Origin: Alphaproteobacteria bacterium
Lineage (GTDB): Bacteria; Pseudomonadota; Alphaproteobacteria; Thalassobaculales; Thalassobaculaceae
Direction: 5' to 3'
Assembly: GCA_028822575.1 (NCBI GenBank)
Contig: JAPKDN010000002.1
Span: 1 to 25,268 of the forward strand
Length of the DNA stretch: 25,268 bases
Shown here: one piece after another, positions 246-19,980 of the stretch
Layout: each line of letters begins with the position of its first letter
How positions within the stretch are numbered: the stretch's first letter is position 1
The notes under the pieces: generated by a model
Told to the model about the DNA's origin: nothing
The model's database searches: none
The model's input: only the letters and a program-made list of their open reading frames with translations
Made by a program: the position numbers and the translations under genes

Positions 246-3200
246 CTAATCCACCTTGGCGCGCTTGCTGGGGCCGGCAAGGAAATCACCATCGCGGGGC
301 TTATCCGATACCATCCAGGGATCACCCTTGGCGTTTAGGTAGAGTTTGCGTTGTTCAGCCATCGTAAAAGGGCGAGAGCCCAGCCGGCCAAATACCGCGA
401 TCTGACCGCCAGTCTCATCCACCGCGCGGTCACGGTCGATACCCTTGGATAACGCTAGGGCCGGGGAGTTGGTCTGTTTCCAGGCGATCAACTCTGGCTT
501 TGGCTCCGGACTGTATCCGTAGTAGCGGGGTTGGCTGTCGGGTGAAGTCATCTGCACGACCTTTAAACCACCGACACCGTCGGCGATGTAGGCGAACAGC
601 GACGCGTTTGTGCTGCCAAGGATGACATCGCGCGCGTCGACGATCTTTCCATCGGCGTTGAAGATGGAATGCAATTTGGGTTTGCTCGGGTCCTTGATAT
701 TAAGGATTGCAAGGCCTTCCGAACCAGCCGCAACATAGGCATACGTCCGCGCCAGATAGACCCGACGCGCGTCCTTGAGTGGAATTTGGGCGCCCTCGAC
801 CTTGATTGGTGCCGCCGGATTGGTCGCGTCGAAGATTTGCACCCCGAGCTGGTCGGTGACGAAAAGGTAGCGGAACTGCAGCGCCGTAGCCCTCGGGTCA
901 TCCATCGGTATCGTCCTGGCGAGGACAGGAGCGAGCGGGTCGGTCATGTCGAGAACCACTACGCTGTTCTCAGTGGTTATGAAGAACCAATTGCCCGCGA
1001 TAGTGATGTGCCGTGCGCCGGTCAGTACACCGCCTTCGTTCCAGGTCAGCGCCCGCTCGAAGAAGTTATTGCGCGCCTCACCGTCAGACAGGGTGTTCAC
1101 GTCAACGACGATCAGACCTTCCACAGCGTCGGTGACGAAGGCGTAATTATAGATCGGGTGGAACGGTTGTTCCTGATTGTCGATCCTCATCAGATCGCCT
1201 TTGTTGCGGCCCGGAGCGATTGGCTGTCCAGTCGGCAGCGCCATACAGGTCGCATTTTTCGATTTAACGCGCGTGCCGTGCCCAAGCGGCGAGAAGGGCG
1301 CCGTGATAATCCGCTGAGAGATCCCTTTGTTGGCGATGCTCGCCACGTCATAAGCCTGGAAACCGCCCTTACCCTCGGCAACAAATAGGTATTCGCCGCG
1401 TAGTTGCAGGCAGTTGGCGACACCAGGGCTAGAATGGGCGTAGCTCTCTTGCAATTCCCCATCGTTATCCCGGTGGTCTGCGGACCAGTCGGGATAGGCG
1501 TATTTTTGAAGATAGCTTCCGATCACCGCCTGCGGCTCGTCCCATTCGGTAACCCGCACCGCCTCGACACCGTCCTCTGCACCGACCCAGGCATTGTAGC
1601 CAACGAAGTTGACGAAATTTGTGCCATGCAGCAGCAGCTGCGCCATACGGGAATTGTTGTCATTGGCTTCCGAAAGATGACAGTCACTACAAGTCTTAGT
1701 TTCGGTCTTACGCACAGTATGTGGGAAATGCGGGGCGAAGGCCTGGCTGGAATAGCCTGATGCCGCGATCGGCGGCTGCTGGATATAGATCTTCTCTCGG
1801 TTGATGTTGGTCGAGGAAAGCACTAGCGCCGACGTTGAGCGGATTGGAGCAATTGTGTTGCCCTTGGAAGTCGAATGGATGCCGAGCTGGAACATTTGGT
1901 CGCGTACGACCTGAGGGTTATAGGTGGCAAAGTTCCGGGTCTCGCCGCCCTCAAAGTGTTGACGCTCGGTCTTCCAGTTCGCCTGGATTGGGAGATGGCA
2001 GCCGCCACAGCTGGTGGTCCAGGACAGATGGCAAGTGAAACACTCCATCTCCTCGTCCTTGTGGGCACGATCGTCCTTGGCCACGCCCAGGCCCCAGGTC
2101 TGAGTGGCTGTGTCGTTTGAGACCAATTTCGCGCGCGCCGCCTTGGCGTTGTAGGTCGCATGGTCTGGATTGATTGAATCCTTGACCAAGCTCATCTCCC
2201 ATTCCAGATCCGGCCATAACGCCGAGCGCTGGATAAGCTTGTCGCCGCGCCATTCGAACCGTTTCGAGCCATCAGCATTGCGGGTCAAAGAAAAGTCGGT
2301 GCCTCCAGGAGGTGCCGCTGGGCCCGAGCTACGCAACGATGGGTAGGCATCTGCGGTGCCATGGCAGTCCTTACAGGTAACCTCGATCGTGTTCGCCACC
2401 TCACCGTAGAGATGGCCGTTGGAATGGGAATCCTGCTCGAAATGACAGTCGACGCAGTGCATCCCGGCATCGAGATGGATCGATGACATATGCACCGCCT
2501 TCTCGAATTTATCCGGATCGTCTGGCTCCACGATCTTGTTCTCAGCGTCTAACAAATTACCGGCTTCGTCCTTTTTGAACACGGCCCGGAAATTCCAGCC
2601 ATGGCCGTGGTAGTCGGCGAACTGGGTGTTTTCGAGGTCCGGGTTCATCTCCGAGACTTGACGCAAGAAGGACGGATCACCCCAAAGACCCCGAACCGCA
2701 GCTTCCTCGGGATTACGTTCCAAAATCTCAAGCATCTCGGCGTCGGTGGGATAGCGCTGTTCCTCTGGCCACATGGACGGCGCGTCGGACTCATAATCCC
2801 ACATCGAGTAGCCGAGATAGGAATTCAGGCACACATTCGGCTGATGCATATGGCAGATCATACATTGGCTGGTAGGAATTGCGCTGGTGAACTCATGCTT
2901 GAGAGGGTGCCCTGACTCCCCTTTAGGTATAGTCGGGTCAGCCGTCTGGGTTTCGCCCAGATGCCCATGTTTGGAATAGGGTCCAGAGTGTCTTGGGTCG
3001 CGATCATTCGCGTAAACCACGTGACAGGACGCGCAACCCGAGGTCCGAAAATCACCGGGTTGCTCATTGGTGCCAAGAAACCACATCAACGGGTCGTTGA
3101 GCCGCGTCTTGGTGATGTTAATCACCGGCACCGAAATACGCAGGCCTGTTCCCGGGCCACGATTAGATTGCCTAATATCTGGACGTCCCGGCTCCTCTAA

Positions 3201-4022
3201 GCGCTGTAACTGCCCCAGTGAATCTGGAATACCAATTTCAGGGAACAGATTTAGAAGGTTTCGGCCACCGCGCTCAAACACCCTGAAGATGTCTCCAGGT
3301 GGGACTACTTCCCAGGCCGGGATTGGCAGCATTTTCTCGAGTATGCCAGCCTTTTTCATCTCCTCCGTAACCGGGATCGCCGCTTCAAGGATCGCGGCAT
3401 TGCCATCTCGGTCGTAGGCTTCGCCCATAATATAATTCTTTAGCGGTACGATGCCGTTGTTGTAGGAGGCTCCGCCGAAAAGCATGGCGCCGGTCGCCAT
3501 AATGCTACCCTTGGCGGCGCGAATTTCCTTAGCGTGGCAAGCACCACAAGCTTCGTCAACAATGCGGTAGTCACTGGGGTTCACAAAGCGGACGTATTCC
3601 GGACTTTCCCGGTTGAGCAGGGAGTAGGAACCCTTTGGATTGGCGCTGCTCGGATAGTTCCAGGTGTCGGGCAAGGTAGGCTGCACATGCGCCGCGTCCA
3701 TCGCTTCTCGATAGGCGGTGTCGGACGGCGCGCCAGCGCCTGGTTTTGTGATAGCCACATCCCCGCCATGACAATCGACGCAGCCTAGATTAACCGCGCC
3801 AGATCGATGCATGCTCGGTTCATCAGTTGTCTCGTGACAGCTCATACACCCCGAGGATTTTCGCTTCATCTCGGTGTCAGACTGACCCGCCGGTGCGGCG
3901 GGCGCGGTCGTATAGGCAACCTCGCGCGGCTTTTCTGGACCAGCGGACGCGCTTGCTTGCCCCAGGAATGACACCAATGCTGTCAGGACTGCTAGAACCG
4001 TGAATGTCGGGATTGCGCGCAT
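246..4022 (-). CDS. Secreted decaheme cytochrome c with C-terminal LVIVD beta-propeller
   Basis: Predicted 1258-residue exported electron-transfer protein. Residues 1-26 form a signal peptide with no lipobox cysteine. Ten CXXCH haem c motifs begin at about residues 59, 81, 159, 330, 387, 523, 550, 661, 672 and 778. From about residue 870 to 1180 there are six LVIVD-type repeats (for example YLFVTDQLGVQIFD, FAYIADGVGGLKVVQM), a family expected to fold as a beta-propeller. The ATG at 4022 is preferred over the TTG one codon upstream because GAGG lies 8 nt before it. It is the last gene of the seven-gene operon, 10 nt after the beta-barrel gene, which suggests that the two products work together at the outer membrane or cell surface. 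Haem binding is secure from the motifs. Final location and redox partner are inferred. No catalytic site for a known substrate was recognised. Confidence 0.9.
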   Translation of the reverse strand: MRAIPTFTVLAVLTALVSFLGQASASAGPEKPREVAYTTAPAAPAGQSDTEMKRKSSGCMSCHETTDEPSMHRSGAVNLGCVDCHGGDVAITKPGAGAPSDTAYREAMDAAHVQPTLPDTWNYPSSANPKGSYSLLNRESPEYVRFVNPSDYRIVDEACGACHAKEIRAAKGSIMATGAMLFGGASYNNGIVPLKNYIMGEAYDRDGNAAILEAAIPVTEEMKKAGILEKMLPIPAWEVVPPGDIFRVFERGGRNLLNLFPEIGIPDSLGQLQRLEEPGRPDIRQSNRGPGTGLRISVPVINITKTRLNDPLMWFLGTNEQPGDFRTSGCASCHVVYANDRDPRHSGPYSKHGHLGETQTADPTIPKGESGHPLKHEFTSAIPTSQCMICHMHQPNVCLNSYLGYSMWDYESDAPSMWPEEQRYPTDAEMLEILERNPEEAAVRGLWGDPSFLRQVSEMNPDLENTQFADYHGHGWNFRAVFKKDEAGNLLDAENKIVEPDDPDKFEKAVHMSSIHLDAGMHCVDCHFEQDSHSNGHLYGEVANTIEVTCKDCHGTADAYPSLRSSGPAAPPGGTDFSLTRNADGSKRFEWRGDKLIQRSALWPDLEWEMSLVKDSINPDHATYNAKAARAKLVSNDTATQTWGLGVAKDDRAHKDEEMECFTCHLSWTTSCGGCHLPIQANWKTERQHFEGGETRNFATYNPQVVRDQMFQLGIHSTSKGNTIAPIRSTSALVLSSTNINREKIYIQQPPIAASGYSSQAFAPHFPHTVRKTETKTCSDCHLSEANDNNSRMAQLLLHGTNFVNFVGYNAWVGAEDGVEAVRVTEWDEPQAVIGSYLQKYAYPDWSADHRDNDGELQESYAHSSPGVANCLQLRGEYLFVAEGKGGFQAYDVASIANKGISQRIITAPFSPLGHGTRVKSKNATCMALPTGQPIAPGRNKGDLMRIDNQEQPFHPIYNYAFVTDAVEGLIVVDVNTLSDGEARNNFFERALTWNEGGVLTGARHITIAGNWFFITTENSVVVLDMTDPLAPVLARTIPMDDPRATALQFRYLFVTDQLGVQIFDATNPAAPIKVEGAQIPLKDARRVYLARTYAYVAAGSEGLAILNIKDPSKPKLHSIFNADGKIVDARDVILGSTNASLFAYIADGVGGLKVVQMTSPDSQPRYYGYSPEPKPELIAWKQTNSPALALSKGIDRDRAVDETGGQIAVFGRLGSRPFTMAEQRKLYLNAKGDPWMVSDKPRDGDFLAGPSKRAKVD

Positions 4023-4032
4023 CAACAGGGCC

Positions 4033-5799
4033 TCAATAGGTCAAGATCAGGTTGGCGAGCACGGAGTAGAATACATCGTCTTCGTCGGCGTCGGCGCCGT
4101 ACAGATCCTGAAGGCCTTCGCCAGCGAATAGCGTCGCCCCGGAAAGCCGAAACACTACGTTCTGAGTGAAGAAGGGCCTATAGATCAGTGCCGCCGAGAC
4201 ATCCCAGCCGATTTCCCGATCAATATCCTGCTGGTTGCGGGCCACCTCGAGAACAGTAGTGTCGTCGAATGCCATGTAGTTGACGTTTGTGGTGAGGCGC
4301 AACTCTGGCAAGATGTCAAAGTCCGCGCCAGCTCCAATCAACCGGAAACCAGGATTGTTGAAATTCGACTGCCCGTGCTCCTTCGAGGTATTAAGCGAGG
4401 GCAATAAGCCGTTACGGTTCGACAGCACCACACCGCCGCCGCCGATAAACGGGATCGCCTGGCGAGTCCAGTAATTCGTGTCGGAGCCGGCGATCTGCGG
4501 GTTCTCAAAGATTGCGTCGAAACCACCCTCGGTATCGTCAAAAGGATCAGAATCGCCGGAGGCATAGACCAACGAGCCGCGCACCCGCACCCAGTCAAAA
4601 TCCATCGACGGTTCGGCGGCAAAGAAAAACGCGTTTACATCCGATTGTTTATCCGTGAAGACGCTGTCCCGATTGCTACCGAAAGCATAGTAAAATGAGT
4701 GAGTCAGGTTGATTCGGCCGAAATGCCCGTCACCGCTGAACCCGAGATAACCGATGTCATAATTGCGGCCGCGTTCGCTTCCGAAGGAGGCCGGGCGTTC
4801 AATGAAGCCATTCTCGTTGAAGAAAAATTCCTCGCCCTCGCGATTCCGATTATAAATCGCCGCGATCTGACTTTGAAAACCAAGAACCGGGAAATCCTGC
4901 CAATAAAGGTCAGCGATGAAGACGTCGTCCTCGCGGATTTTTCGCTCGATGTGATTGAGCCCGCTGTTCGAGTCCTTTGTCAAACGCCTGAACCATGCCA
5001 GATTGTACTGGAAAATATTATTACTTCGGGTACCAAACAGACGCGCGCCGAGCTGCGCATCCTGGAACAGGAAACCACGAAAATCCGCGTTGAAAGGTTG
5101 AATTCCAACCCGGACCGAATCGAAATCATAACGATCCGAGACGTTTCGGATGTGATAGTCGATGAACGCTTCCTGGAGCGCTATGTGGCGATCATTCCGG
5201 GTCGTGCCTGAACGGGGGTCGGCCTTCAAGGCTCGCTGTTCCTCAACAACCACCCGGTTATAATTGATCACCGGCACGACCCGGAACTCCCAATCCGGCG
5301 GCTTGAAAGACGTGTCGCCCTTAATCAGGGAAGCGCTGATGATCAGGTTCTGATTAAAGACCCACTGGTTTACATCGCCAAAGAGATCAACTGAGTTGGT
5401 CCTATCGGTGGATTGCACGCCAACCGGCGTCGGTACCGATCGCGGTTCGTAGACGCTATCAGAAATCACCGAGAGATTGACGAACCAGTCATCGCCGAAC
5501 ACCGGCCGATCGCCCTTCAGGGGGTTGCGGTTATACGGATCAAGAATGCTCTCCTTGACCCCCAAAGATTCGATCAATCGCCAGCGATCCGGCACCGAGA
5601 TACCATCAATCTTCGCCGGGTCACGATTACGCGGCGGCGTTATACGGCGTAGGATCGCGCCAGGAAGCGGCCTAGTTTCCTCGACCTCGGCGGGGGGTAT
5701 CTTGCCGGGAATACGTCGTTCTTGTGCATGCGCGGAACTCATCGGGGCAATTGACATAGCCGCGAGCATTAATCCAGCGATTAGCGAGCGAAGAGGCAT
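4033..5799 (-). CDS. Outer-membrane beta-barrel protein, candidate partner of the decaheme cytochromes
   Basis: A 588-residue protein with a clear signal peptide (residues 1-25, cleavage after AHA). The rest alternates polar and hydrophobic residues with many aromatics (for example INLTHSFYYAFG) and ends in LILTY, an aromatic C-terminus as expected for BAM-inserted barrels. The frame is open back to 5838, but the ATG at 5799 is chosen: it gives the signal peptide directly and lies 1 nt after the TAG of the upstream gene. I could not place it in a named porin family. The size suits a large barrel, somewhat shorter than the MtrB sheath protein (about 700 residues). Position between periplasmic haem proteins and a secreted decaheme cytochrome suggests a sheath or anchor. 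Other possibilities are an ordinary porin or an alginate-export-like barrel. Confidence 0.75.
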   Translation of the reverse strand: MPLRSLIAGLMLAAMSIAPMSSAHAQERRIPGKIPPAEVEETRPLPGAILRRITPPRNRDPAKIDGISVPDRWRLIESLGVKESILDPYNRNPLKGDRPVFGDDWFVNLSVISDSVYEPRSVPTPVGVQSTDRTNSVDLFGDVNQWVFNQNLIISASLIKGDTSFKPPDWEFRVVPVINYNRVVVEEQRALKADPRSGTTRNDRHIALQEAFIDYHIRNVSDRYDFDSVRVGIQPFNADFRGFLFQDAQLGARLFGTRSNNIFQYNLAWFRRLTKDSNSGLNHIERKIREDDVFIADLYWQDFPVLGFQSQIAAIYNRNREGEEFFFNENGFIERPASFGSERGRNYDIGYLGFSGDGHFGRINLTHSFYYAFGSNRDSVFTDKQSDVNAFFFAAEPSMDFDWVRVRGSLVYASGDSDPFDDTEGGFDAIFENPQIAGSDTNYWTRQAIPFIGGGGVVLSNRNGLLPSLNTSKEHGQSNFNNPGFRLIGAGADFDILPELRLTTNVNYMAFDDTTVLEVARNQQDIDREIGWDVSAALIYRPFFTQNVVFRLSGATLFAGEGLQDLYGADADEDDVFYSVLANLILTY

Positions 5800-5800
5800 T

Positions 5801-7741
5801 CTATTTTCCGGCGCAAACGTTCTGTTCATTGGTATCAAGGAATGGTGAGAACGGGCAGTTAACGTAACGTAATCTAGCTCCCCGGACCACTACATTATCG
5901 GCACGGATCGACCGGGGCGCGTTACCAATACCATTGCCCAGCTCGACGCCCGCGTTGTGCAGACCGAGGAAGGAAATCATGTCGTCCTGATCAATGCCAT
6001 CGCCAGAGACTCCTAAACCACCAACCAAGACCGAACCACGATAGATAGGCACACTTCCAGGGAAGATCTGAATGCCGTTTGGTAGCCGGCTCAAGCTTGT
6101 CTGTGGGCGGGCCGAGAGCGCCGTACAACCCTGGGCCGTGTCGTTAGCCGAGGCGCCGAGCAAAAAATTGACATGTGCTGCCAAATTACCAAGGATCAAT
6201 TGGAATTGCAGACCGGTATTGAAGGGGCTCCAGGCACCGATTGGCTCGCTTAGCGGTCCGTTCGGTGAACCGTCAATACCGTCCGGATAATAGGGGCGCG
6301 ACAAGTTTCCACCAGACCGGTCCGCGAAGGCGATCCCGTTGGCAAGCGCGGTCGGACCAACAAATGCCCGGACTGCGGTCACAAACTTGCTCTGGCCGCC
6401 AGCGATCAACTCGCGCGCCGCGTTGGGGTTGGAGAAAAACGCGGCGGTACGGGCCTTCTGTAACGAGACATCAGTTCCGAAGATTGGGCCGTCCGGGGTG
6501 CGGATAATACCGAGGATCTTTCCATTGGTATCGACAACGGACATTGTCACCTGTGCGTGGCTGCCCAGGGGGCGCCGTATTTGCCCGCGGGCCCGGGTCG
6601 CGATCGTCAGCGCATTGCGCAGGATTGTGGTTACCTCGGCCGCTGTCAGGGAATTTGTCGAACCTTCCGTACCGGCCTGGGGCGAGAACCGGGGCTGATC
6701 ATTCTGGTCCACAAGGACAAAAGCCGTAAGTGGCGCGTAAGCGCCGCTTACGTCTTGTCTGAACCCCGACGATCCTTCGCCAAAAGTCTGCCCAGCGGCT
6801 ACCACGCCATCAAAATATGTGGGAATGGGGGTCAACGCCCCAACCGAGGGATCCAGCAAGCTGGCAAAACTCGGCGCGGCCCCGGCGCTTGATAAAAGTG
6901 AGCGTGAGTCCCGATCGGTAAAGCGGAAAGTCTTACCCTCCACCGTGATACGGTTACCCACGATATCAGCGGGCGGCTCGAAGCCGCGGGTGGCGGCAAG
7001 CGCGATCAACTCATCATTGTCGGTGTCAAAATCGGAGATCCTGAGATCAACGCTGTAGGCTCCATCAGAAATCACGCCGACACCGCCAACCATATCACCC
7101 TTCTTGTAGAGTGGCAGTCCGCCCGGATCCGCCGCGAGCCCCAGAGGGGAGCGTTTTGGTCCAATAGTGACAGTGTTGGTGTTGATGTTGAGATCGGAAC
7201 ACGGGAGTTGACTGAACTGGACCCCGAATAAGGGACCGCTGGGAGAGAACCGTTCCTGGGGATTGAAATGTTCCTGGACGATCTGGTTCGCAGTGCGGGT
7301 CGTGAACGCGTTACCCCCGGAAGACAAGTATGCGCCGGTAATCGCCTTTGCAATCGCTGCCACTGGGCCCGGAATTGACAACCCGTCCAACCCCAGATTG
7401 GTCGGCGTGTTGATGTTCGGCTTGCCCACCGCGCCGTTCGGCTGCGCTGGATCGGAGGTAATGACGATGCAGCCAACGGGAATGCCACCAAGCAGCACGG
7501 CGCAACCGTTGCCCACGGAATCAACTGAACGATTGGCGCCGATCATATTATAAATCGCGAGCACGTTCCCAACCCGGTCGGTGACCGCGATTGCAGCGGG
7601 AGCCCCCCGCGCGCGCGCTTCATTTACCGCCTGTGAAATTACTGATTGTACGTCAGCCACCGTAAGGTTCGCCGCGACCACCGGTCCCGACAGGAGCGAA
7701 CCAAGGAGCAGACCGAGCATTACCGCGCCGCGCCGGATCAT
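5801..7741 (-). CDS. Secreted protein with two GlcG/HbpS-type (DUF336) haem-binding-like domains
   Basis: 646 residues with a signal peptide (1-23). Two GlcG/HbpS units are visible, each split. Unit one has its N-half at about 27-66 (helix, then AAIAVTDRVGNVLAIYNM) and its C-half at about 208-255 (LPLYKKGDMVGGVGVISDG). Unit two has its N-half at about 365-450 (LTAAEVTTILRNAL, then VTMSVVDTNGKILGI) and its C-half near 560-605 (VPIYRGSVLVGGLGVSGDG). A single GlcG domain is about 140 residues, so this protein carries large inserts. HbpS-family proteins bind haem or sense redox state, and a periplasmic haem-associated role fits the operon. The ATG at 7741 overlaps the upstream stop (ATGA), and GGAG lies 8 nt before it. 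No CXXCH is present, so any haem would be non-covalent. No catalytic residues were recognised. Confidence 0.75.
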   Translation of the reverse strand: MIRRGAVMLGLLLGSLLSGPVVAANLTVADVQSVISQAVNEARARGAPAAIAVTDRVGNVLAIYNMIGANRSVDSVGNGCAVLLGGIPVGCIVITSDPAQPNGAVGKPNINTPTNLGLDGLSIPGPVAAIAKAITGAYLSSGGNAFTTRTANQIVQEHFNPQERFSPSGPLFGVQFSQLPCSDLNINTNTVTIGPKRSPLGLAADPGGLPLYKKGDMVGGVGVISDGAYSVDLRISDFDTDNDELIALAATRGFEPPADIVGNRITVEGKTFRFTDRDSRSLLSSAGAAPSFASLLDPSVGALTPIPTYFDGVVAAGQTFGEGSSGFRQDVSGAYAPLTAFVLVDQNDQPRFSPQAGTEGSTNSLTAAEVTTILRNALTIATRARGQIRRPLGSHAQVTMSVVDTNGKILGIIRTPDGPIFGTDVSLQKARTAAFFSNPNAARELIAGGQSKFVTAVRAFVGPTALANGIAFADRSGGNLSRPYYPDGIDGSPNGPLSEPIGAWSPFNTGLQFQLILGNLAAHVNFLLGASANDTAQGCTALSARPQTSLSRLPNGIQIFPGSVPIYRGSVLVGGLGVSGDGIDQDDMISFLGLHNAGVELGNGIGNAPRSIRADNVVVRGARLRYVNCPFSPFLDTNEQNVCAGK

Positions 7742-8196
7742 TGCCCCGCTCCAGAAACATTTCTATGCAGTTCGAAAACCCCAAATTTTAAAGCCGTTGG
7801 CGTGCGATAAGCCACGGTGATCCGGATTGGAAACAATTCCGCCGACATGTCCTCATCCTTCAGGATCTTGAACGACACCTGGTCGCCGGTGATCGAAAAC
7901 CGGTTATCGGTCAAGCTCACCAATCGACCGTCCCAGGGCACCCAGAATCCAAGGTGATTACGCTGTAGTGCTTTTCCACTGGCCGTATGGGCGGTCACGA
8001 AGGTTCCGGCTACCCCATCACCTCCAAGCGCGATCGTCCTCAACACCGTGACGCGTGCCGGGTCGACACCAACCGCCGACAATCGGGCTCCGGTATCCGT
8101 CAACCGATCCCGGGCCGACGCGGTGCCAGCCATCAGGGAAAACAATAAAATAACCGCGGCGAAAAATGGAAACAGCCTTGTCTGGATAGACATCAT
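7738..8196 (-). CDS. Small secreted protein of unknown family in the cytochrome operon
   Basis: About 152 residues. An N-terminal signal peptide runs from Met1 to about residue 28, with cleavage after TASA. The mature part is a compact, probably beta-rich domain (GFWVPWDGRLVSLTDNRFSI, then FPIRITVAYRTPTALKFGVFEL). I do not recognise the family. The frame extends upstream to 8259, but the ATG at 8196 is chosen because it overlaps the stop of the FHA-cytochrome gene as ATGA and begins the signal peptide. A second ATG follows at 8193. The stop in turn overlaps the next start as ATGA. This double coupling suggests production in fixed ratio with its neighbours and a periplasmic accessory role. That role is inference from position only. 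Confidence 0.75.
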   Translation of the reverse strand: MMSIQTRLFPFFAAVILLFSLMAGTASARDRLTDTGARLSAVGVDPARVTVLRTIALGGDGVAGTFVTAHTASGKALQRNHLGFWVPWDGRLVSLTDNRFSITGDQVSFKILKDEDMSAELFPIRITVAYRTPTALKFGVFELHRNVSGAGQ

Positions 8197-9881
8197 TTTT
8201 CTGCCATCTTCGCGGGTTTGACCATTGGCGGCTGATCCGGCGAGTGGAAACCATGGCACATGATACAGGTGCTCGGCACCTTGTCCGTGCTCTTGTCGCC
8301 GCCGTGACAGTCACGACACATTTCAATCTTCGGCAGCAAGACATCCGTGCTCGACATCGACTCGGACGTGGCGTGGCAATCCGTGCATTGCATGTCCCGG
8401 TGCTTGTTATGCGAGAAGATCGATTTTGGCTGCCAGCGATCAGTCAATCGCACCGGACGCACCGTCCAATCCGCGTGATTTTCGCCCTTAACGACGGTAT
8501 GGCAGGTGCCGCATTGGCTGGCCGAGAAAATATAGGACGCGGCTTGTGCGGTGCGAGTTCTAGACCAATCAAGCGCCTCCTCACGCTCGGGTTCGGAAAG
8601 GCTGGTCCCCGGTCGCCTTCGCACCACCGCTGGAGCGGTCTCGTCTATAACTCCGCCTTCCAAGGCGCGGGCCGCATAGAACTCACTTAATTCCCGCAAT
8701 ACCACTTTCGGCTTGCCGTGGCTAACTTGGCGTGTCGGGGCCGAAGGGTCGAAGGTCAGACGGTGACAATCGGAGCAGTGGGTTTCCATGCTGACCTTTT
8801 TCATCAAGGCCCCGCCTGGTTCCACAGTATGGCAGCTAGCGCACATCAATTGCTTGGTCCCACCCGTTGGCAAGCGCATTTTTTTGGCGTCGAGATGGGT
8901 CTTATGGGTGAATTTCAAATTCGATAGTTCCTTGGGATCGTCGTCGAGGCTGATCCGGGTCCAGATATTCTTGTCTGGGTCAGTCGAGACTGTCGGCCGA
9001 AACTGTGGATGGTTAGTCCCGAAATCCGCAGCGTTTTCCAGGGTCGTATTTGGCGCATCATCGCGCAGATCTTGATGGCAGTCGGCGCAGAGCTGTTGGT
9101 TGGCGTGGAACAGCGGATTCGGCCCCTGATGGTCCTTGTGACAGGAGGAGCAACGCGCCTCGGTCAGGTCATGATCGGGGAAGGCAACCGGATCGGCATG
9201 ATGCTGGGTGTTCACATGGCACGCCGCGCAGGCCGTGTTTGGGGTCATTTCGAACGCTTGCTGATGGCAGGCCCCACAATCATCGGCGAAGAATTTGTGC
9301 GCATCCATCATTTCACCACTTTTCCAAGCGATATCGAAAGATAGATCGTTCTTCATTCCGGCCGGACCACCAGGTGCTTTTCCAGCATCGAATAAATGGC
9401 CACCGATCGGCAAGCCAATGAATCCAATAGCCACGACCAGAAAAAACAGCCAAGCCCAAACCCGTTTGCCCATGCCGCCGGCCGCCAGTGTTGTGCGGCT
9501 TCTTGCCAGTAATGCCTTGACGTCGTCGCCCATCGGCTGGGTCAATTCGACGGTGACCGCCGCGTCTTTGTCTTCCGGTGGCTCAACCACGATGATCTGA
9601 TAGGGACCAACACCGATTTCGTCTCCGACCGAGACTTCAGCGTTGCGAACGACATTGCCGTTCAACCGCAGATCCGACGTTGTGCCAAGCGCCTCGCAAA
9701 ACAGGCCGTTGTTAGGGTTGAAGTGCAGCGCCGCCATTCGCAGGGGAACACGCGGGTCGGGCAAATAGATTTCGTTCTCGGTTCCACGGCCAATCCGCAC
9801 AACATCGGCAGAGACCGTTTCCTCTTTGGTTGAAACCCCGCCCTTGGCGCGTCGGGTCAGGAATGCGCGTCGCAGTTCCAC
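8193..9881 (-). CDS. Inner-membrane FHA-domain decaheme cytochrome c
   Basis: 562 residues in three parts. Residues about 24-100 are an FHA-like domain (RIGRGTENEIYLPD) facing the cytoplasm. One transmembrane helix spans about 141-162 (VWAWLFFLVVAIGFIGL). The periplasmic part has ten CXXCH motifs, the first six starting at residues 202, 218, 244, 265, 347 and 369, the others CGTCH, CTDCH, CRDCH and CIMCH. The spacing suits a cytochrome c3/c7-like wire that takes electrons from the membrane cytochrome b encoded just upstream. The usual FHA phosphothreonine-binding Ser-X-X-His segment reads RVPLRMAALHF here, so phosphopeptide binding may be lost. Start is GTG at 9881, with GAGG 5 nt before it and 7 nt after the upstream stop. 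FHA and haem assignments are firm; the electron partner is inferred. Confidence 0.9.
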   Translation of the reverse strand: MELRRAFLTRRAKGGVSTKEETVSADVVRIGRGTENEIYLPDPRVPLRMAALHFNPNNGLFCEALGTTSDLRLNGNVVRNAEVSVGDEIGVGPYQIIVVEPPEDKDAAVTVELTQPMGDDVKALLARSRTTLAAGGMGKRVWAWLFFLVVAIGFIGLPIGGHLFDAGKAPGGPAGMKNDLSFDIAWKSGEMMDAHKFFADDCGACHQQAFEMTPNTACAACHVNTQHHADPVAFPDHDLTEARCSSCHKDHQGPNPLFHANQQLCADCHQDLRDDAPNTTLENAADFGTNHPQFRPTVSTDPDKNIWTRISLDDDPKELSNLKFTHKTHLDAKKMRLPTGGTKQLMCASCHTVEPGGALMKKVSMETHCSDCHRLTFDPSAPTRQVSHGKPKVVLRELSEFYAARALEGGVIDETAPAVVRRRPGTSLSEPEREEALDWSRTRTAQAASYIFSASQCGTCHTVVKGENHADWTVRPVRLTDRWQPKSIFSHNKHRDMQCTDCHATSESMSSTDVLLPKIEMCRDCHGGDKSTDKVPSTCIMCHGFHSPDQPPMVKPAKMAEK

Positions 9882-9888
9882 GTCGGCC

Positions 9889-10716
9889 TCACCAATAATA
9901 AAAGACGGAAATCACGTGACCGGCGAGCGCCGCCAGCAACGCGAAGGATAGGGGAACATGGAAATAAAGCCAGACTTCCAGCATTGCTCTGAGCTGGACG
10001 TCACGACGCATGGTTCGCAACAATGTCGACTTTTTTCCAAGCAAGGTGATAAGTTTACGAATATCAACGCTATGAGCCCCGGTTAACACGGCGGCGAGCT
10101 CACGAACGCCCTCGAAGGCGCGGTTGGTTCCACAAGTCGGGTCCTCTCCACTCAACTGGCGAAGTATTGAGCCGCCAATCCGGGTTTCGTTACAGGACAC
10201 CAAGACCAGTGCTGCAATCTCGTCTGGCATGGTACTCGCGACTTGCCGGCATTCACGATCCAGTTCGCCAATCTCAGAATAGACCTCGTCCGTGGTGACG
10301 CCACGCCGGTTCTCGGTCATCAATCGCGGGTACCGCGCATAGGCGTAAATACCGAAGAATCCGCTAGTGATAACCACCATCATGAGGGAATAGGCCAGGG
10401 TGTGCAGGTTCCAGCCGAATTGGAAGCCGGTGTGCAGCGTCGCGACAATAATCAGACTGAGACCAAGGTATACATGCGCCGACAGCCAGCCCTGAAGTTT
10501 GCTTACGGTGCCATAACGCCGTTTGCGCACGCCGAACCACATCAACCAAAGGATCAGGGCGGCGCCAATGGAGCCCAACCCGTAGCCGAGCCAGGTGCCG
10601 CCATTCGGTTCGTCGGGAGGAGTATGCCAGCCATAGACCACAATCGCCGTCACACAAAGGAGCGTGGCAATCTTCAGGTAGCGAAATCCGGCGTAAACTA
10701 GGAAACCCTCATGCAT
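9889..10716 (-). CDS. Membrane dihaem cytochrome b-like protein
   Basis: 275 residues with about five transmembrane helices (roughly 13-30, 44-63, 80-98, 104-125, 250-272) and a soluble loop of about 110 residues between the fourth and fifth. Two helices each carry two histidines 14 residues apart: H81/H95 and H253/H267. That spacing is the pattern of bis-His haem b pairs in quinone-reactive cytochromes b (b561, FdnI and HydC types). The start at 10716 directly abuts the stop of the ferredoxin-flavoprotein gene, with GGGGAG upstream. Likely role: moving electrons between the cytoplasmic flavin/Fe-S protein or the quinone pool and the periplasmic decaheme protein encoded next. The loop (VSCNETRIGGS, and so on) is not recognised. 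Haem b binding is inferred from histidine spacing. Confidence 0.75.
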   Translation of the reverse strand: MHEGFLVYAGFRYLKIATLLCVTAIVVYGWHTPPDEPNGGTWLGYGLGSIGAALILWLMWFGVRKRRYGTVSKLQGWLSAHVYLGLSLIIVATLHTGFQFGWNLHTLAYSLMMVVITSGFFGIYAYARYPRLMTENRRGVTTDEVYSEIGELDRECRQVASTMPDEIAALVLVSCNETRIGGSILRQLSGEDPTCGTNRAFEGVRELAAVLTGAHSVDIRKLITLLGKKSTLLRTMRRDVQLRAMLEVWLYFHVPLSFALLAALAGHVISVFYYW

Positions 10717-13113
10717 CTAGGTTCTCCCCGACCCTGCCGAATGGGTGATCGAGAAAAACTCTTCCGGGTTGACCCGGATCGCGGCCCCGGTCGGACAGGC
10801 GCTTACACAGGACGGGCCACCGGCGATGTCTTTGCACATATCGCATTTGGTCGCGGTCTCGCGCGCGCCTGCCGGCTTCTCCCGCGGGGTCTTGTCCTCA
10901 CCGGGCCCTGGGCCAAGGCCAAGCAGCAGCCATTGAAGTAATCCCGGCTTCTCGGGCGGCGGGTAGGCCATATGGATCACGTCATAAGGACAGTCGCGCG
11001 CGCAGTTACCGCAGCCTATGCATTTCTCGTCGATAAACACCTCGCCATTTGGCGCCCGGTGTATCGCGTCGGCTGGACAATCCGACATGCAATGCGGGTG
11101 TTCGCAGTGCCGGCAGGATGTCGGTACATGCAGGGTCCCAAAGGTCGGACCGGCCTCGCGCTTCAAGCGTGACTTACCACCATGAGTTTCCGCGCAAGCC
11201 TTCTCGCAGTTGTCACAGCGCACGCAAAGCGCCTCGTCGATCAGCAGAACGTCCGTGGCCTCACCAAGGCCCTGATTAACTAGGAAATCGATGATATCGC
11301 CAGAATCCGGTTGCTGCTCGGTTTCGACGTTTTGAACCAATCGGTCCCGGAAACGTTCCTCGATCTCGCCTTTCAACACCGGCTCGCGCTCAAGCAGACG
11401 CTTGAAGGCAGCGGCATCGACCTTGATGGTTTCCGACGCAACGGTCGCCTTCACCGTTGCCGACCGCGGCGCTTCGGTCAAAAGCGCCATCTCGCCCACG
11501 TAATTGCCCGCCGGAATATAGGACAAAACCACGTCTCGCCCACCGATCCGCCGGGAAACCATCATCGAGCCCGACCGAATGAGATAGACATCGTCGGTCG
11601 TTTGGCCTTCCTCGATCATTATATCGCCAGCCGAGAAACTTTCGATCGTCGCTGTCGAGACGACTTCCTCCAGCAGCGCGGGATCGATATTCGGCGCCAG
11701 ATGGGTCTGGATCTGCCGGCTGATCGCCGCCTCGTCGATGACGCGTTTGGCGGCGTCTATAGAACTGATCAATTTCAACATCGCGCGGCGCGGCGTTTCG
11801 ACCAGGATCGAATCCTCATGGGCCAGAACGGTGGCAGTCCGCCGCCGCCCCGACAGCAACCCCATCTCGCCGAAAAACGCGCCACTATGGAGGGTTACGA
11901 CCTCACTAGGGTCATTGGGATTGATTTGAATATCAACCCCGCCATCAACGATTGAATAGACGCTGTTGGTGAAGTCATTGCGTTCGAAGATAGTGTCCTT
12001 CGGCGCGACACGATGGATCCGGCTTTCAAGCATGAACTCCCGCAACTGCAGACGCGACATGTGAGACAGCAACGGCACGTTGGTCTGGATCGCTTCCAGA
12101 ACCTCGTCGACGGTCATGCCCTCGATAGCAGCAAAGCGTTCTTCCAGCAAAGCTTGATCAGCAGGACGGACCGGATGACCGAGGATGGTCTCGACCACCT
12201 CGAACCCTTGATTCATCGCCTGCTTGATCAGTGGGTATCCGGCCAAGGCCCCTACGATATACATCCCCTCAACAGAGGCCTCATAGGTCGCCGAAAGTTC
12301 TGGCAAGGCCGAGGGCTCATCGCTGGAGAACTTGATCCCACACGCCTCGACGAAACGTCTGGGCGGATTGGCGCCAAGCCGGGCGATAACGCGATCGCAT
12401 TTGACCTCTGCCTCACCTTCCGGCGTCTTGAGGACCAAAAGGCCCGGCTCGACCCGCAGTGGCGAGGCATTAAAATAACACTCGATAAGTTCGCTTTCGA
12501 TAGCGCCATTGATCGCGTTTAGGTTGCCCTGTTTAGCGCGCGCGAACTCACCCTTTCGGTTAATAATGACCACTTCGTTCTGGGTCGTGAGACCCATCGC
12601 GTTTTCGATCGCGGCGTCGCCGGCGCCCACCACCACCACGGTCTCGCCTTCGTATTCCAAAGGGTCATCCAGCTGATACTGGACGCGCTCCCATTCCTGA
12701 CCGGGAACGCCGAGTTGACGGAGATTTCCCTGCACACCGATCGACATGATCACGTGTTTGGCCTTGACGGTCTCTTCTCCATTAATCGTGAGCGTGAAGT
12801 CCCCCTTCGAGCCCTCGATCGCGGTGACTTCGCTTTTGTAACGAATATTTACCGAGTGCTCATCGAGCCCGGTGTTCCATTTGTCAAGAATATCCTCTCG
12901 AACTCCAGCCTCAAAGAGCATGTCACTCTGAAGTGGCAGAACGTCTGGCGTCGCCATGACGAACTTTTTCTTTTGATATTTGTATATGGTATCCGAGGCG
13001 TGGTCTGTCCGCTCGAATAGCACATGACTAACACCACGCTGCGCCGCTCTGCCGCCGGCACTTAGTCCCGCCGGGCCGGAACCAACGATGACAATGTCAA
13101 AATCACTTGTCAC
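10717..13113 (-). CDS. Fusion: FAD/NAD(P)H oxidoreductase, two cNMP-binding domains, four-[4Fe-4S] ferredoxin
   Basis: 798 residues with no signal peptide, so cytoplasmic. Residues 5-315 are a two-dinucleotide-binding flavoprotein: FAD motif GSGPAG at 11-16, second Rossmann motif GAGDAA at 163-168. It has no CXXC, so it is not a thioredoxin reductase and is nearer to YpdA or ferredoxin-NADP reductases. Residues about 355-460 and 480-595 are two CRP-like cyclic-nucleotide-binding domains, each with a phosphate-binding-cassette-like stretch (FGEMGLLSGRRRTATV; VGEMALLTEAPRSATV). Residues about 622-785 are a DmsB/HybA-type ferredoxin with 16 cysteines in four groups (630-640, 667-679, 698-708, 757-773). 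Start is GTG at 13113; an in-frame TAG two codons upstream rules out a longer form. It heads the operon. Likely role: linking NAD(P)H to the cytochrome b next door, perhaps gated by a nucleotide. Confidence 0.9.
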   Translation of the reverse strand: MTSDFDIVIVGSGPAGLSAGGRAAQRGVSHVLFERTDHASDTIYKYQKKKFVMATPDVLPLQSDMLFEAGVREDILDKWNTGLDEHSVNIRYKSEVTAIEGSKGDFTLTINGEETVKAKHVIMSIGVQGNLRQLGVPGQEWERVQYQLDDPLEYEGETVVVVGAGDAAIENAMGLTTQNEVVIINRKGEFARAKQGNLNAINGAIESELIECYFNASPLRVEPGLLVLKTPEGEAEVKCDRVIARLGANPPRRFVEACGIKFSSDEPSALPELSATYEASVEGMYIVGALAGYPLIKQAMNQGFEVVETILGHPVRPADQALLEERFAAIEGMTVDEVLEAIQTNVPLLSHMSRLQLREFMLESRIHRVAPKDTIFERNDFTNSVYSIVDGGVDIQINPNDPSEVVTLHSGAFFGEMGLLSGRRRTATVLAHEDSILVETPRRAMLKLISSIDAAKRVIDEAAISRQIQTHLAPNIDPALLEEVVSTATIESFSAGDIMIEEGQTTDDVYLIRSGSMMVSRRIGGRDVVLSYIPAGNYVGEMALLTEAPRSATVKATVASETIKVDAAAFKRLLEREPVLKGEIEERFRDRLVQNVETEQQPDSGDIIDFLVNQGLGEATDVLLIDEALCVRCDNCEKACAETHGGKSRLKREAGPTFGTLHVPTSCRHCEHPHCMSDCPADAIHRAPNGEVFIDEKCIGCGNCARDCPYDVIHMAYPPPEKPGLLQWLLLGLGPGPGEDKTPREKPAGARETATKCDMCKDIAGGPSCVSACPTGAAIRVNPEEFFSITHSAGSGRT

Positions 13114-13425: not shown

Positions 13426-13758
13426 ATGTCGCGAAATAACATGATGTTGATTTTTGGGCTAAGTGCGGTATCCCTATTCAGCTTTGTAATGATCGGGAGT
13501 TGGTGGGCCTTTCCGGATCAATCCGCGCCGATGCCAGGCGTGGAAGCAAGATTGGGAGCTTTGGAAAACCAGGCGCGCCTGGAACCAGGTAAGGTCGAGA
13601 ACTTCGCCCGGTTGGGGGCGGCCTATAAGGCGATGGGGCGGCTGCGGGAGGCGGTTTCAGCGTATGTTTCAGCGTCCGAGCTCGCGCCGGGCAACGCGGA
13701 GGTGCAGAGGGCTCTGATATCGTTAAAGGCGATAGCAGAGGTAAAGGGTCGACATTGA
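13426..13758 (+). CDS. Small membrane-anchored TPR protein, CcmH/CycH-like
   Basis: 110 residues. An N-terminal membrane anchor (about residues 6-27, MMLIFGLSAVSLFSFVMIGS) is followed by a periplasmic part with a clear TPR unit (NFARLGAAYKAMGRLREAVSAY, then ASELAPGNAEVQRAL). This resembles the TPR part of cytochrome c maturation factors CcmH/CycH/NrfG, which hold apocytochrome during haem attachment. Such a role fits its place between operons encoding 25 c-type haem sites in total. The ATG at 13426 is chosen because GAGGAGG lies about 9 nt upstream and the anchor begins at once; the frame is open to 13345. It could equally be a generic TPR scaffold. The next gene starts 82 nt downstream. Confidence 0.7.
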   Translation: MSRNNMMLIFGLSAVSLFSFVMIGSWWAFPDQSAPMPGVEARLGALENQARLEPGKVENFARLGAAYKAMGRLREAVSAYVSASELAPGNAEVQRALISLKAIAEVKGRH

Positions 13759-15198: not shown

Positions 15199-15231
15199 GC
15201 CCGGGCGGGGATAACGCCCGGGCGTTTATTT
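15199..15231. terminator. Intrinsic terminator between convergent genes
   Basis: GCCCGGGCG at 15199-15207 pairs perfectly with CGCCCGGGC at 15215-15223 around a 7-nt loop, followed on the plus strand by GTTTATTT. It starts 12 nt after the stop of the multihaem gene. The T-run overlaps the stop of the minus-strand gene at 15226, and the symmetric stem may serve both strands. Confidence 0.85.
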
Positions 15232-16425
15232 CGGCACCACCTTGAGCGTAAAGAAGCCGGTACCGGCGCAGCAATGGGCGACCTCTAGCGTGTAGTCGCC
15301 CGGCTCTAGCGTCGCCTCCAGGGAAAAATTGTACCCAGATCCGCCGTCATCGTCCCCAGCCAAAATGGCCCCGGTCGGGTCTTTCAGACTGCCAACGATA
15401 TCGCTCGGACCGGTGGATACGATTTTATAATCGCCCGTTGATGGTATCGAAATCATGTAGCGTCGCGTCTCGCCGCTGGTGGTGATACGGTCGGTTACCG
15501 GCGCGTTGTTAGCGGGATCGAGTCGCTGCGGGGCCGTAGCGGCCGCAGTCGATGGCGGGCCAGCGTCCGCTGTCGGGCTCGACACGGTCTCGCGGTCAAT
15601 GGCGACTTCGATGGTATCGCTGGCGGTGAAACGCCGGCCCTTCGGAAATGTCAAAACGGCTTGAGGTCCCATGATTTCTCCGGCTGCCCGGGTGATCGAC
15701 GCAACCATCCCTCCATCGCCGTTCGGAACACCCGAAACCGCCAGCCCGGATGTTGCGACCACCTGCCACACGTCATCGAGACGTAGCGACCGGGTTCCGC
15801 CCGGGGATATCAGAAGAATCTTGTCCGGGACGGCGAGAGCCGCAGCCAAATCCTCTACAACCGGCCCGAGCGGTTGATCCGCCCGGCGCAACGCGGCGAG
15901 ACGCAGGCTTTCGGGCATGGTTCGACTGGATCGCGCCAGAAGTCGCAAAAATGCCGCCTGTCCTTCGCTGACAGTTTCATGCCAATGGCCGGAGCCGCCC
16001 TCGATGCCCACGAAGACCCTGTTCGGCGCGCGCTTAAACAGATAGCGTTTTTTACCGGCCTCGCCACCGATCTGGCGATACAGGTCATAGACGGCCAACG
16101 CCGCCTCGACCCAAGCTCGATCTCCAGGCCCGAAGGGCGCCTCATCGATAGCCCCCGCGAGATCCTGGACCGGGTCATAGAACATCAACGCACCAAGAAA
16201 TTTTACCTCTCCATTGGCCGTTTCGGTTCCGAGCGCCAGGGCCGTCGACGCGGTGCCGGCGATGGCGTTTGCGTTTGCGTTTGCGTTTGAGGGCTCGGAC
16301 GCGCGGGCGGCGTCAAGCATACCAGCAAAACCAACGGTCGACCCTAGGCATATGGCCATTAGACACCGACCGGCGACGCAGCCCCGGCGCCGGCGCCTCT
16401 TGAAGTTGGTTTCGCGCCTGGTCAT
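15226..16425 (-). CDS. Secreted protein of unknown function with C-terminal PPC-like domain
   Basis: 399 residues. A very basic N-terminus (FKRRRRRGC) leads into a signal peptide with likely cleavage near residue 42 (ARA). Residues 47-54 are an Asn-Ala repeat encoded by four copies of a 6-bp unit. The middle (about 73-270) is a soluble domain I do not recognise. Residues about 315-397 resemble bacterial pre-peptidase C-terminal (PPC) domains: RRYMISIPSTGDYKI, a DPTGAILAGDDDGG turn, then LEPGDYTLEV. PPC domains usually accompany secreted enzymes, but no protease or other catalytic motif was found. The ATG at 16425 follows GAGGG and lies 9 nt after the alcohol dehydrogenase stop, so the two genes are probably co-transcribed. 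The PPC call is by eye. Confidence 0.7.
   Translation of the reverse strand: MTRRETNFKRRRRRGCVAGRCLMAICLGSTVGFAGMLDAARASEPSNANANANAIAGTASTALALGTETANGEVKFLGALMFYDPVQDLAGAIDEAPFGPGDRAWVEAALAVYDLYRQIGGEAGKKRYLFKRAPNRVFVGIEGGSGHWHETVSEGQAAFLRLLARSSRTMPESLRLAALRRADQPLGPVVEDLAAALAVPDKILLISPGGTRSLRLDDVWQVVATSGLAVSGVPNGDGGMVASITRAAGEIMGPQAVLTFPKGRRFTASDTIEVAIDRETVSSPTADAGPPSTAAATAPQRLDPANNAPVTDRITTSGETRRYMISIPSTGDYKIVSTGPSDIVGSLKDPTGAILAGDDDGGSGYNFSLEATLEPGDYTLEVAHCCAGTGFFTLKVVPK
16265..16288. repeat. Hexanucleotide tandem repeat (GCGTTT)4 inside a coding region
   Basis: Four perfect copies of GCGTTT, read on the minus strand as alternating Asn and Ala codons just after the signal peptide of the PPC-like protein. 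Because the unit is 6 bp, gain or loss of copies keeps the frame and only alters linker length. Confidence 0.9.
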
Positions 16426-16434: not shown

Positions 16435-17583
16435 TCAGGCCCGGTGGGGTTCCAAGATCTGGCGGATCGCCAGCCCGTCGGCCAACTGATCGAACCCTTC
16501 ATTGATCTTATCAAACCCGATGCTCCGGTTGATCAGCTGGTCGACCGGCAACCGGCCCTGACGATACAGCTCAATATAGCGGGGGATATCCCGCACCGGC
16601 ACACAGCTGCCCATATAGCTACCACGGATTGCTTTTTCCGAATTCACAATATCGCCCGGGTTGAACGAGAATAGCTTGGCGTTCGGGCCAGTATTCGGGA
16701 CCAGGCCGACCACGATCACCTCGCCGCCGGTGCGCAACGACTTGTAGCAGGTCTCGGTTGCGGCGATGGTTCCCGAGAATTCGAAGGCGTAATCAACACC
16801 GCCATTGCTGATGTCGAGAATCTGCTGAACATGATCCTCGTCCCGAGCGTTGATGGTGTGGGTCGCGCCAAGTTGACGAGCGAGACCGAGCCGATCGTCG
16901 CTGATATCCACGGCGATAATCTTTTCCGCGCCCGCGACCTTGGCGCCCATCAGGCCGTTCAGGCCGACACCCCCAAGCCCGACACAGGCAACGGTGTCGC
17001 CGGCCCGGATGCGCGCCGTGTTCAACACCGCGCCGACCCCGGTCATCACCGCACAGCCAAAGATTGCCGCGTCGGCCAGTGGCAGGTCCTTGTCGACCTT
17101 CACCGCCGTGCCCCGGTCGATGACCGCGTATTCGGCGAAGCAGGAGACTCCGGACTGATGCGCGATTTCGACGCCTTTGGAATCCCTGAGCCGGCTACCG
17201 CCAGCCATCAAATGTCCCTTGCCCCGCACCGACCCGTGAGTCGAACAGAGTTGTGGGCGTCCGCCTAGGCAATTACCGCATAACCCGCAGGAGGCCGAGA
17301 ACTGAAAGACGATCGGATCACCGACTTTGATGTCACGGACGCCGCGACCGACCTCGACCACTTCGCCTGAGCCTTCGTGGCCCAGGACCAAAGGCATCGG
17401 GCGGGCCCGGTTCCCGTTGATCACCGAAAGATCCGAATGACAGAGACCACCACCCGCGATCTTAATCAGCAATTCGCCATCCTGGGGAGGGTCGAGTTCA
17501 ACTTCCTCGATACGCACGGGTTCGGAAATCGCGTAAGGGCGCTTGGCGCCGGTTTCACGAAGGACGGCAGCTTTCATCTTCAT
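16435..17583 (-). CDS. Zinc-dependent alcohol dehydrogenase (MDR family)
   Basis: 382 residues, the usual size for medium-chain zinc dehydrogenases. Catalytic zinc ligands are C48 (GGLCHSD), H69 within GHE, and C177. The structural zinc site has four cysteines at 99, 102, 105 and 113. The NAD-binding GLGGVG is at 202-207, followed by an acidic AVDISDD, which favours NAD over NADP. The chemistry is reversible oxidation of an alcohol to an aldehyde or ketone; the substrate cannot be told, though the class resembles class III and aryl-alcohol dehydrogenases. The frame is open to 17709, but the ATG at 17583 is used: GGAG lies 7 nt upstream and the protein then begins in the family manner (MKAAVLRE). 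It is divergent from the PhyH-like gene, with a shared 158-bp promoter region. Confidence 0.92.
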   Translation of the reverse strand: MKMKAAVLRETGAKRPYAISEPVRIEEVELDPPQDGELLIKIAGGGLCHSDLSVINGNRARPMPLVLGHEGSGEVVEVGRGVRDIKVGDPIVFQFSASCGLCGNCLGGRPQLCSTHGSVRGKGHLMAGGSRLRDSKGVEIAHQSGVSCFAEYAVIDRGTAVKVDKDLPLADAAIFGCAVMTGVGAVLNTARIRAGDTVACVGLGGVGLNGLMGAKVAGAEKIIAVDISDDRLGLARQLGATHTINARDEDHVQQILDISNGGVDYAFEFSGTIAATETCYKSLRTGGEVIVVGLVPNTGPNAKLFSFNPGDIVNSEKAIRGSYMGSCVPVRDIPRYIELYRQGRLPVDQLINRSIGFDKINEGFDQLADGLAIRQILEPHRA

Positions 17584-17741
17584 CGGTCTTCTCCGTTCCG
17601 GCGGTGCCGGAGATCGTTGGCGAGTCTGGTAACCAGATATGGGATGATCCGGTGCCGGTTCGTCAAGCCATCCGTGAGGACGCTTGCGGGAGAAATCGCC
17701 CAAGCGCATCCTTCTATTAAGAAATCACAGGGACGATCACG
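17584..17741. promoter_or_regulatory. Divergent promoter region with a GntR/FadR-like palindrome
   Basis: This gap should contain the promoters of both the alcohol dehydrogenase and the PhyH-like gene. TCTGGTAACCAGA at 17625-17637 is a perfect 6-bp inverted repeat around one base. Half-sites GGT and ACC are typical of FadR-subfamily GntR regulators, but no regulator gene lies in the window. CCGG-N5-CCGG and CCGGTGCCGG repeats are also present. Confidence 0.45.
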
Positions 17742-18740: not shown

Positions 18741-18780
18741 TTACACGTACCCATAACGCAAGCAATAGGGAGACGGGACC

Positions 18781-19977: not shown

Positions 19978-19980
19978 GCG

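Follow-up and report, generated by a model that had tools for sequence, protein, structure and literature searches.

Relation to described electron transfer systems

The closest described systems are the MtrCAB, MtoAB, and PioAB conduits; the CbcL-type modules of Geobacter, which join an inner-membrane cytochrome b to a multihaem cytochrome; and the extHIJKLMNOPQS cluster of Geobacter sulfurreducens, which is linked to selenite and tellurite and also holds a porin-like protein, several multihaem cytochromes, and a cytochrome b together. The MtrB barrel has 26 strands. Barrels of the AlgE type are known as channels. ExtB, a part of the Geobacter ExtABCD conduit, has 18 transmembrane segments according to excerpts of its description (PMC6148476).

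The window, a stretch of 25,268 nucleotides (contig JAPKDN010000002.1 of GenBank assembly GCA_028822575.1) from an alphaproteobacterium of the family Thalassobaculaceae, carries on its minus strand, at positions 246 to 13113, seven packed, head-to-tail open reading frames (P0001 to P0007). Like MtrCAB, MtoAB, and PioAB, this operon combines a decahaem periplasmic wire, an outer-membrane barrel, and an exported decahaem cytochrome, but it has an AlgE-type barrel, an exported cytochrome devoid of a lipobox, and an NAD(P)H module of its own. As in CbcL-type modules, a cytochrome b, here probably dihaem, is coupled to an inner-membrane multihaem cytochrome c; however, this b/c pair is fed by a protein with NAD(P)H, cyclic-nucleotide (cNMP), and four [4Fe-4S] parts, and it has an FHA-like head. 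The barrel shares 13% identity with AlgE and Occ (OprD) channels and stands in a redox context, not in one of polysaccharide export. The likeness to extHIJKLMNOPQS consists of weak P0007-ExtM matches, with two stretches in the same order in three of the four relatives' genomes, whereas the NAD(P)H/cNMP protein, the FHA head, the HbpS protein, and the propeller are not mentioned for ext in the available excerpts of PMC5877670 and PMC6148476.

The preliminary description held that no part of the operon looks like MtrA, MtrB, or MtrC or their known analogues. This is mostly right, with the exception of P0007, which matches ExtM weakly (NCBIfam, 81.8 bits against a cutoff of 800; two relatives score 72.5 and 64 bits). 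MtrA and MtrC matches are far below the cutoff or absent. In four genomes with a P0007 relative, ExtM was matched every time and its cutoff never passed. An MtrA/DmsE identity of P0003 was rejected (TIGR03508, 36.6 bits against a cutoff of 192.2), as was an MtrC identity, on the basis of the NCBIfam scores. Some P0007 relatives carry a precomputed PF22113 annotation (MtrC/MtrF domains II/IV); since PF22113 stays below the gathering score in the other cytochromes of the system that were scanned, these hits are treated as haem-motif similarity. For P0006, no MtrB/PioB-type family appears among the NCBIfam matches at an E value of ≤0.01, and MtrB is absent among the 50 structural matches listed, although absence from a fold list does not exclude it.

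A strict Mtr-type conduit, in which the barrel encloses the cytochrome and electrons pass to extracellular minerals or an electrode, thus has to contend with an AlgE-type model instead of a 26-strand barrel, with the low MtrA/DmsE score of P0003, with the missing lipobox of P0007, and with the named hosts, which we take to be mostly aerobic heterotrophs. The component logic speaks for it, and because ExtB likewise has 18 transmembrane segments (PMC6148476, in excerpt), a count of 18 strands is in itself compatible with a conduit. One record with the operon (L026) is titled as a biocathode isolate, and excerpts of PMC12175321 report mtrA, mtrB, and mtrC in sediment metagenome-assembled genomes (MAGs) of Woeseiaceae, the family to which loci L037 and L047 belong, an overlap at the family level only. 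On balance, we consider such a conduit unlikely. The open-access PMC literature searched yielded no description of the operon, which, for a search of that scope, is a weak absence; the excerpted account of Sideroxydans PCC3 clusters (PMC12016527) does not describe it, and in the excerpted report on cathode-oxidising Thioclava no multihaem EET genes were found (PMC9226611).

Instead, we propose a modular, NAD(P)H-linked electron-export pathway that is adjusted by cyclic nucleotides and has P0007 and P0006 as its terminal parts at the outer membrane; we assign this reading a probability of about 0.55. The flavin/NAD(P) part of P0001 would oxidise NAD(P)H, and the electrons would pass through the four [4Fe-4S] clusters of P0001 to the dihaem cytochrome b P0002 and on to the membrane-anchored decahaem protein P0003. 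The periplasm would be crossed via P0003 with the pentahaem protein P0008, and the electrons would end on P0007, a putative terminal oxidoreductase that would act at the outer membrane together with P0006, the AlgE-type barrel. The two cNMP domains and the FHA-like head may adjust the flow to cytoplasmic cyclic-nucleotide, and perhaps phosphorylation, signals. We infer the outward direction solely from domain chemistry; the order of transfer, the gating, and catalysis by P0007 are likewise deduced from the predicted parts.

Operon structure and the inner module

All seven minus-strand reading frames are present in the order previously given, P0001 to P0007, and are as tightly packed as had been claimed. 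At the chosen starts, neighbouring genes are separated by at most 10 nt or overlap by 4 nt: P0001 and P0002 abut (0 nt), P0002 and P0003 are 7 nt apart, P0003 overlaps P0004 (start, 8196) and P0004 overlaps P0005 by 4 nt each, and gaps of 1 and 10 nt precede P0006 (start, 5799) and P0007 (start, 4022), respectively. Pfam and NCBIfam agree with the domain names of the preliminary description (Pyr_redox/YpdA-like, two cNMP, 4Fe-4S, cytochrome b561-like, FHA, HbpS, and LVIVD), and its assertion that every compartment has a component is supported. Two divergent plus-strand genes, encoding the pentahaem protein P0008 and a TPR protein, were absent from that account.

P0001 (10717 to 13113, minus strand) is a predicted cytoplasmic protein in which Pfam and NCBIfam identify a YpdA-like FAD/NAD(P) domain, two cyclic-nucleotide-binding domains, and a 4Fe-4S domain; four [4Fe-4S] clusters are predicted. 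The FAD/NAD(P) domain is nearest to YpdA-type reductases (NCBIfam, 140 bits against a cutoff of 339.9). In an alignment of 54 sequences, the FAD and NAD(P) glycines are kept, 16 Cys residues in four groups are invariant, and the NAD(P)-loop Arg residues R186 and R192 are conserved in 52 and 47 sequences, respectively. The phosphate-binding cassette of cNMP domains is marked by a Glu and an Arg, and both residues are present in both P0001 copies (E416 in 53, R425 in 54, E541 in 45, and R550 in 53 of the 54 sequences).

P0002 (9889 to 10716, minus strand) is a membrane protein of the cytochrome b561-like kind, as judged from its hydrophobic segments and a Ni_hydr_CYTB (cytochrome b561-like) match of 22.8 bits, below the cutoff of 30.1. 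Five His residues (81, 95, 105, 253, and 267) are invariant in an alignment of 47 sequences, and the protein probably binds two haems. P0003 (8193 to 9881, minus strand) consists of an FHA-like cytoplasmic head, one hydrophobic segment (about residues 141 to 159), and a periplasmic decahaem wire. It has 10 CXXCH motifs in the window, and 55 of the 59 cluster members keep ten (the BLAST clusters used for haem-motif counts took in the window and two plasmid loci). Outside the motifs, nine invariant His residues and a nearly invariant one are candidate distal ligands.

The head of P0003 is FHA/YscD-like, with an FHA score of 23.4 bits against a cutoff of 20.7. FHA domains bind phosphothreonine through conserved GR, S-x-x-H, and N residues. 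The P0003 head is little conserved, and the window copy lacks the usual S-x-x-H residues: the R32 column holds Arg in 37 of 57 sequences, and the likely His column holds His in 37 of 57 and Met in the window. Because of this poor conservation, control by cyclic nucleotides is better founded than control by phosphorylation. Genes for PP2C occur in 11 loci and double-FHA genes in 8 (BLAST clusters, one member of each checked with Pfam), while a protein kinase gene was seen once among the loci. Class III cyclase genes lie near a locus with the layout of the window (type A, L025) and near the inner module in a locus without P0007 (L084), which fits cNMP control.

Outer and accessory proteins

P0004 (7738 to 8196, minus strand) is small, secreted-looking, and without a known family. 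The secreted-looking P0005 (5801 to 7741, minus strand) has HbpS/GlcG-type domains (PF03928 in three stretches, 1.1e-20), and by sequence it weakly matches GlcG/HbpS-type chains in the PDB. P0006 (4033 to 5799, minus strand) is predicted to be an outer-membrane beta-barrel of the AlgE/Occ type, with 18 strands in the model by manual count, the number expected of the AlgE-type fold; in structural comparison, the model matches AlgE. PF13372 (Alginate_exp) does not match the window P0006 at an E value of ≤0.1; it matches 6 of the 52 members of the P0006 alignment (best, 1.4e-6). By sequence, the P0006 profile has no match in the PDB.

P0007 (246 to 4022, minus strand) combines a secreted-looking decahaem domain (haem motifs at residues 60 to 783) with a C-terminal beta-propeller (LVIVD). 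Ten CXXCH motifs are present in the window protein and are kept by 76 of the 78 cluster members. The best PDB matches of its profile by sequence have E values of only 0.15 and 0.24, and the model of the haem domain (mean pLDDT of 69.5) gave no usable structural match. The Foldseek list consists mostly of propeller proteins and includes cytochrome cd1 nitrite reductase (E value of 5.3e-7, TM-score of 0.19 to the query). P0007 is the most conserved of the seven parts, with a mean pairwise identity of 0.632 compared with 0.320 for P0003 (23 loci), which fits an enzyme.

P0008 (13841 to 15187, plus strand) is a secreted-looking pentahaem protein of the c554 family (PF13435) with four CXXCH motifs and one CX4CH motif; among 57 cluster members, 52 have the four CXXCH and 55 the one CX4CH. 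By sequence, it matches cytochrome c554 in the PDB with an E value of 0.016. On the Sphingobium and Sphingopyxis plasmids (L001 and L002), relatives of P0008 and the outer genes belong to a single operon. The small TPR protein (13426 to 13758, plus strand) is NrfG-like on the basis of a weak NCBIfam match (19.4 bits against a cutoff of 306), and members of its cluster are found near the operon in L003, L004, and L010; it might conceivably serve as a cytochrome c maturation helper. As a separate observation, ccm-like (cytochrome c maturation) genes were seen by eye to adjoin the operon in L023, L025, L029, and L030.

Distribution and co-occurrence of the operon genes

A P0007 profile scan of genome contigs gave at least 527 relatives among 594 stretches, from which the best 80 were taken as loci; many of these contigs end early. 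By tblastn, P0006 was found in 79 of the 80 loci, P0005 in 67, P0003 in 61, P0001, P0002, and P0008 in 60 each, and P0004 in 12. In the 39 loci with at least 9 kb on each side, P0005 and P0006 are always present, P0001, P0002, and P0003 occur in 37, and P0008 occurs in 27. All six main families are present in 37 of these 39 loci, on one strand in 33 (29 of them in the order of the window) and split over both strands in 4. As the loci were picked by P0007, the counts show the partners given P0007. A chance gene neighbourhood is ruled out, because homologous loci carry the families together. In two of the 39 loci and in the Sphingopyxis plasmid stretch, the inner and outer modules are not neighbours. 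Both modules are present on plasmid pMSHV of Sphingobium herbicidovorans; plasmid pMC4 of Sphingopyxis indica has the outer module only, within the 40 kb read.

We also searched 375 genomes (185 gammaproteobacterial and 190 alphaproteobacterial), including three that were first reached through P0007 loci (G006, G001, and G005). P0003 is present in 10, P0007 in 8, and P0006 in 7 of the gammaproteobacterial genomes; the alphaproteobacterial genomes have P0003 in 17 cases and P0007 in 12. Thus, P0007 occurs in 20 of 375 genomes, or in 17 of 372 without the three just mentioned, and each of the 20 also has P0003 (E value of ≤1e-20), in keeping with the co-occurrence that the preliminary description had proposed to check. 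The P0007 family is large, with at least 7,992 of 7,998 scored candidates at an E value of ≤0.001, and the 120 matches listed are 64 to 87% identical to the window protein. Parts of the operon also occur in three MAG records (L017, L032, and L067) whose titles, Marinimicrobia, Bordetella parapertussis, and Klebsiella pneumoniae, look misassigned.

Exchange of modules

Consistent absence of the barrel or the propeller cytochrome, or replacement by a known soluble reductase, had been named as a point against the conduit. P0007 is missing from 7 of the 27 genomes with P0003. Five of these seven have another barrel-like protein and a pentahaem protein, and no soluble reductase in place of the outer parts was seen in the stretches read of the P0007-less genomes. 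In four genomes (G253, G297, G312, and G100), a secreted-looking pentahaem protein and a barrel-like protein of about 530 residues adjoin the inner module (type B; the latter was called an outer-membrane barrel by eye and has no Pfam match), and in a fifth (G245) this pair is on another contig. The remaining two are G218, in which a type A locus is cut and retains P0004 and P0005, and G037, in which only a pentahaem relative of 35% identity, on another contig, was found. One genome (G352) has both outer modules. Two results blur this picture. One is that G164 and G183, both type A genomes, also have pentahaem relatives of 35 to 36% identity; the other is the wider spread of the type B barrel-like protein.

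That protein is present in 12 of the 190 alphaproteobacterial genomes, of which 5 also have P0003 and 7 lack it (in 2 of the 7, the match is weak). Three of the latter seven (L103 to L105) have a third layout, type C, recognised by tblastn and by eye. Here the cNMP and 4Fe-4S protein lacks the YpdA part, and the head of the decahaem protein, on the cytoplasmic side, is Cys-rich; the layout also encodes a cytochrome b, a pentahaem protein, the barrel-like protein of type B, and, as a separate gene product, a flavin/2Fe-2S reductase-like protein (named by eye). The decahaem proteins of types A and C are homologous (hhalign, 99.8% over 327 columns, with three sequences on the type C side), whereas the barrels of types A and B have no detectable homology (hhalign, 2%, with nine sequences on the type B side). 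A predicted chain running from an NAD(P)H enzyme via a cNMP ferredoxin, a cytochrome b, and a decahaem protein to a barrel and a secreted cytochrome thus appears to persist though its parts are swapped, which supports the logic of the preliminary description.

In type C, the separate flavin/2Fe-2S reductase-like gene stands in for the absent YpdA domain, which suggests that the partner in the cytoplasm is NAD(P)H. The two forms of NAD(P)-linked flavoenzyme fit a low-potential donor inside the cell and so argue against electron uptake, in which electrons of an external donor would enter via P0007 to reduce either NAD(P)+ or the quinone pool. Every step is reversible in principle, and the biocathode-titled MAG (L026) would suit uptake, which nevertheless seems improbable to us. 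Overall, our results lend partial support to the earlier logic, in the form of a multihaem pathway that is real, widespread, and modular and that links NAD(P)H to the outer membrane. Whether it represents a general class of envelope electron pathways, not described before, in mostly aerobic proteobacteria, NAD(P)H-driven and cNMP-gated, with a fixed inner and interchangeable outer modules that bring electrons to the surface, is a more tentative proposition. If electrons are exported, many bacteria not regarded as electroactive would possess a redox route at the outer membrane that is connected to NAD(P)H and second messengers, and the constant inner module with its differing outer modules offers a direct way to test the acceptor of each outer module.

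Location of P0007

The place of P0007 bears on the choice between electron export and a porin-fed periplasmic reductase, in which the same chain would end on a periplasmic P0007 and the barrel would admit a soluble substrate, such as an oxyanion. Since AlgE-type barrels are channels, P0006 may be just a porin. Surface decahaem lipoproteins such as MtrC and OmcA have a lipobox, which P0007 lacks: a lipobox-like motif is found in only 3 of the 78 cluster members, and the first Cys of the window protein belongs to haem 1 (residue 60). In the first 60 residues from uncurated starts, such a motif occurs in 25 of 61 P0005 and 19 of 57 P0008 sequences. The barrel type, the missing lipobox, and the conservation of P0007 therefore favour a periplasmic location. 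Moreover, P0007 weakly matches ExtM, and the Ext cluster has a porin-like protein, with extHIJKL lacking an outer-membrane cytochrome according to excerpts of PMC5877670 and PMC6148476; for the ExtI cluster of Geobacter, the excerpted literature suggests entry of a soluble substrate via the porin as one possibility. Among the components of Geobacter conduits, the exposed one varies most (PMC6148476, in excerpt), whereas P0007 is the least variable part here. Together, the AlgE-like fold, the missing lipobox, the high conservation, and the weak ExtM resemblance make the periplasmic reductase a strong rival, though a less probable reading than export.

Genes of the type II secretion system (T2SS) point the other way. 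T2SS-type genes adjoin the operon in six loci (L010, L016, L018, L019, L021, and L041; GspE of L021 by Pfam, the rest by cluster and by eye), and a prepilin-peptidase-like gene precedes it in L005 to L007 (by eye). In the 12 alphaproteobacterial genomes with P0007, a near-full GspE match lies 3.8 to 4.3 kb from P0007 in five and on another contig in five. One of the five adjacent matches passes the curated cutoff of 630 (637 bits), and four score 572 to 612 bits; as GspE scores overlap those of PilB-type ATPases, only positions beside the operon and clear weakness were used. The other two genomes, G200 (fragmentary) and G337, have only weak GspE matches, so that T2SS is not required. The four alphaproteobacterial genomes with the type B module only have no or weak GspE matches, none was found within 10 kb of P0007 among the matches listed for the 8 gammaproteobacterial genomes, and the window reading frames scanned include no T2SS gene. 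T2SS as a general partner was thus rejected.

According to excerpts of PMC1974784, the outward transport of MtrC and OmcA in Shewanella is attributed to T2SS, and with this precedent the T2SS genes beside the operon favour export of P0007. Layouts B and C keep a pair of barrel-like protein and secreted cytochrome although the barrel is not detectably related, as in conduits, and a decahaem-propeller protein of about 1,250 residues would be large for a periplasmic enzyme; both points, too, speak against the periplasmic reductase. We lean slightly toward the cell surface as the place of P0007.

Flanking genes

P0009, a reading frame of 399 residues (15226 to 16425, minus strand), adjoins P0008 and has no Pfam match; L018 has a relative of 32% identity close to the operon. 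The region from 16435 to 24982 holds catabolic genes for a Zn-alcohol dehydrogenase, PhyH, a class III CoA-transferase, an enoyl-CoA hydratase, and three TauD-type dioxygenases. In L001 (from annotation) and in L099, L103, and L108 (by eye), the clusters repeatedly have FecR-like, two-partner-secretion, or TolC-like genes in their vicinity.
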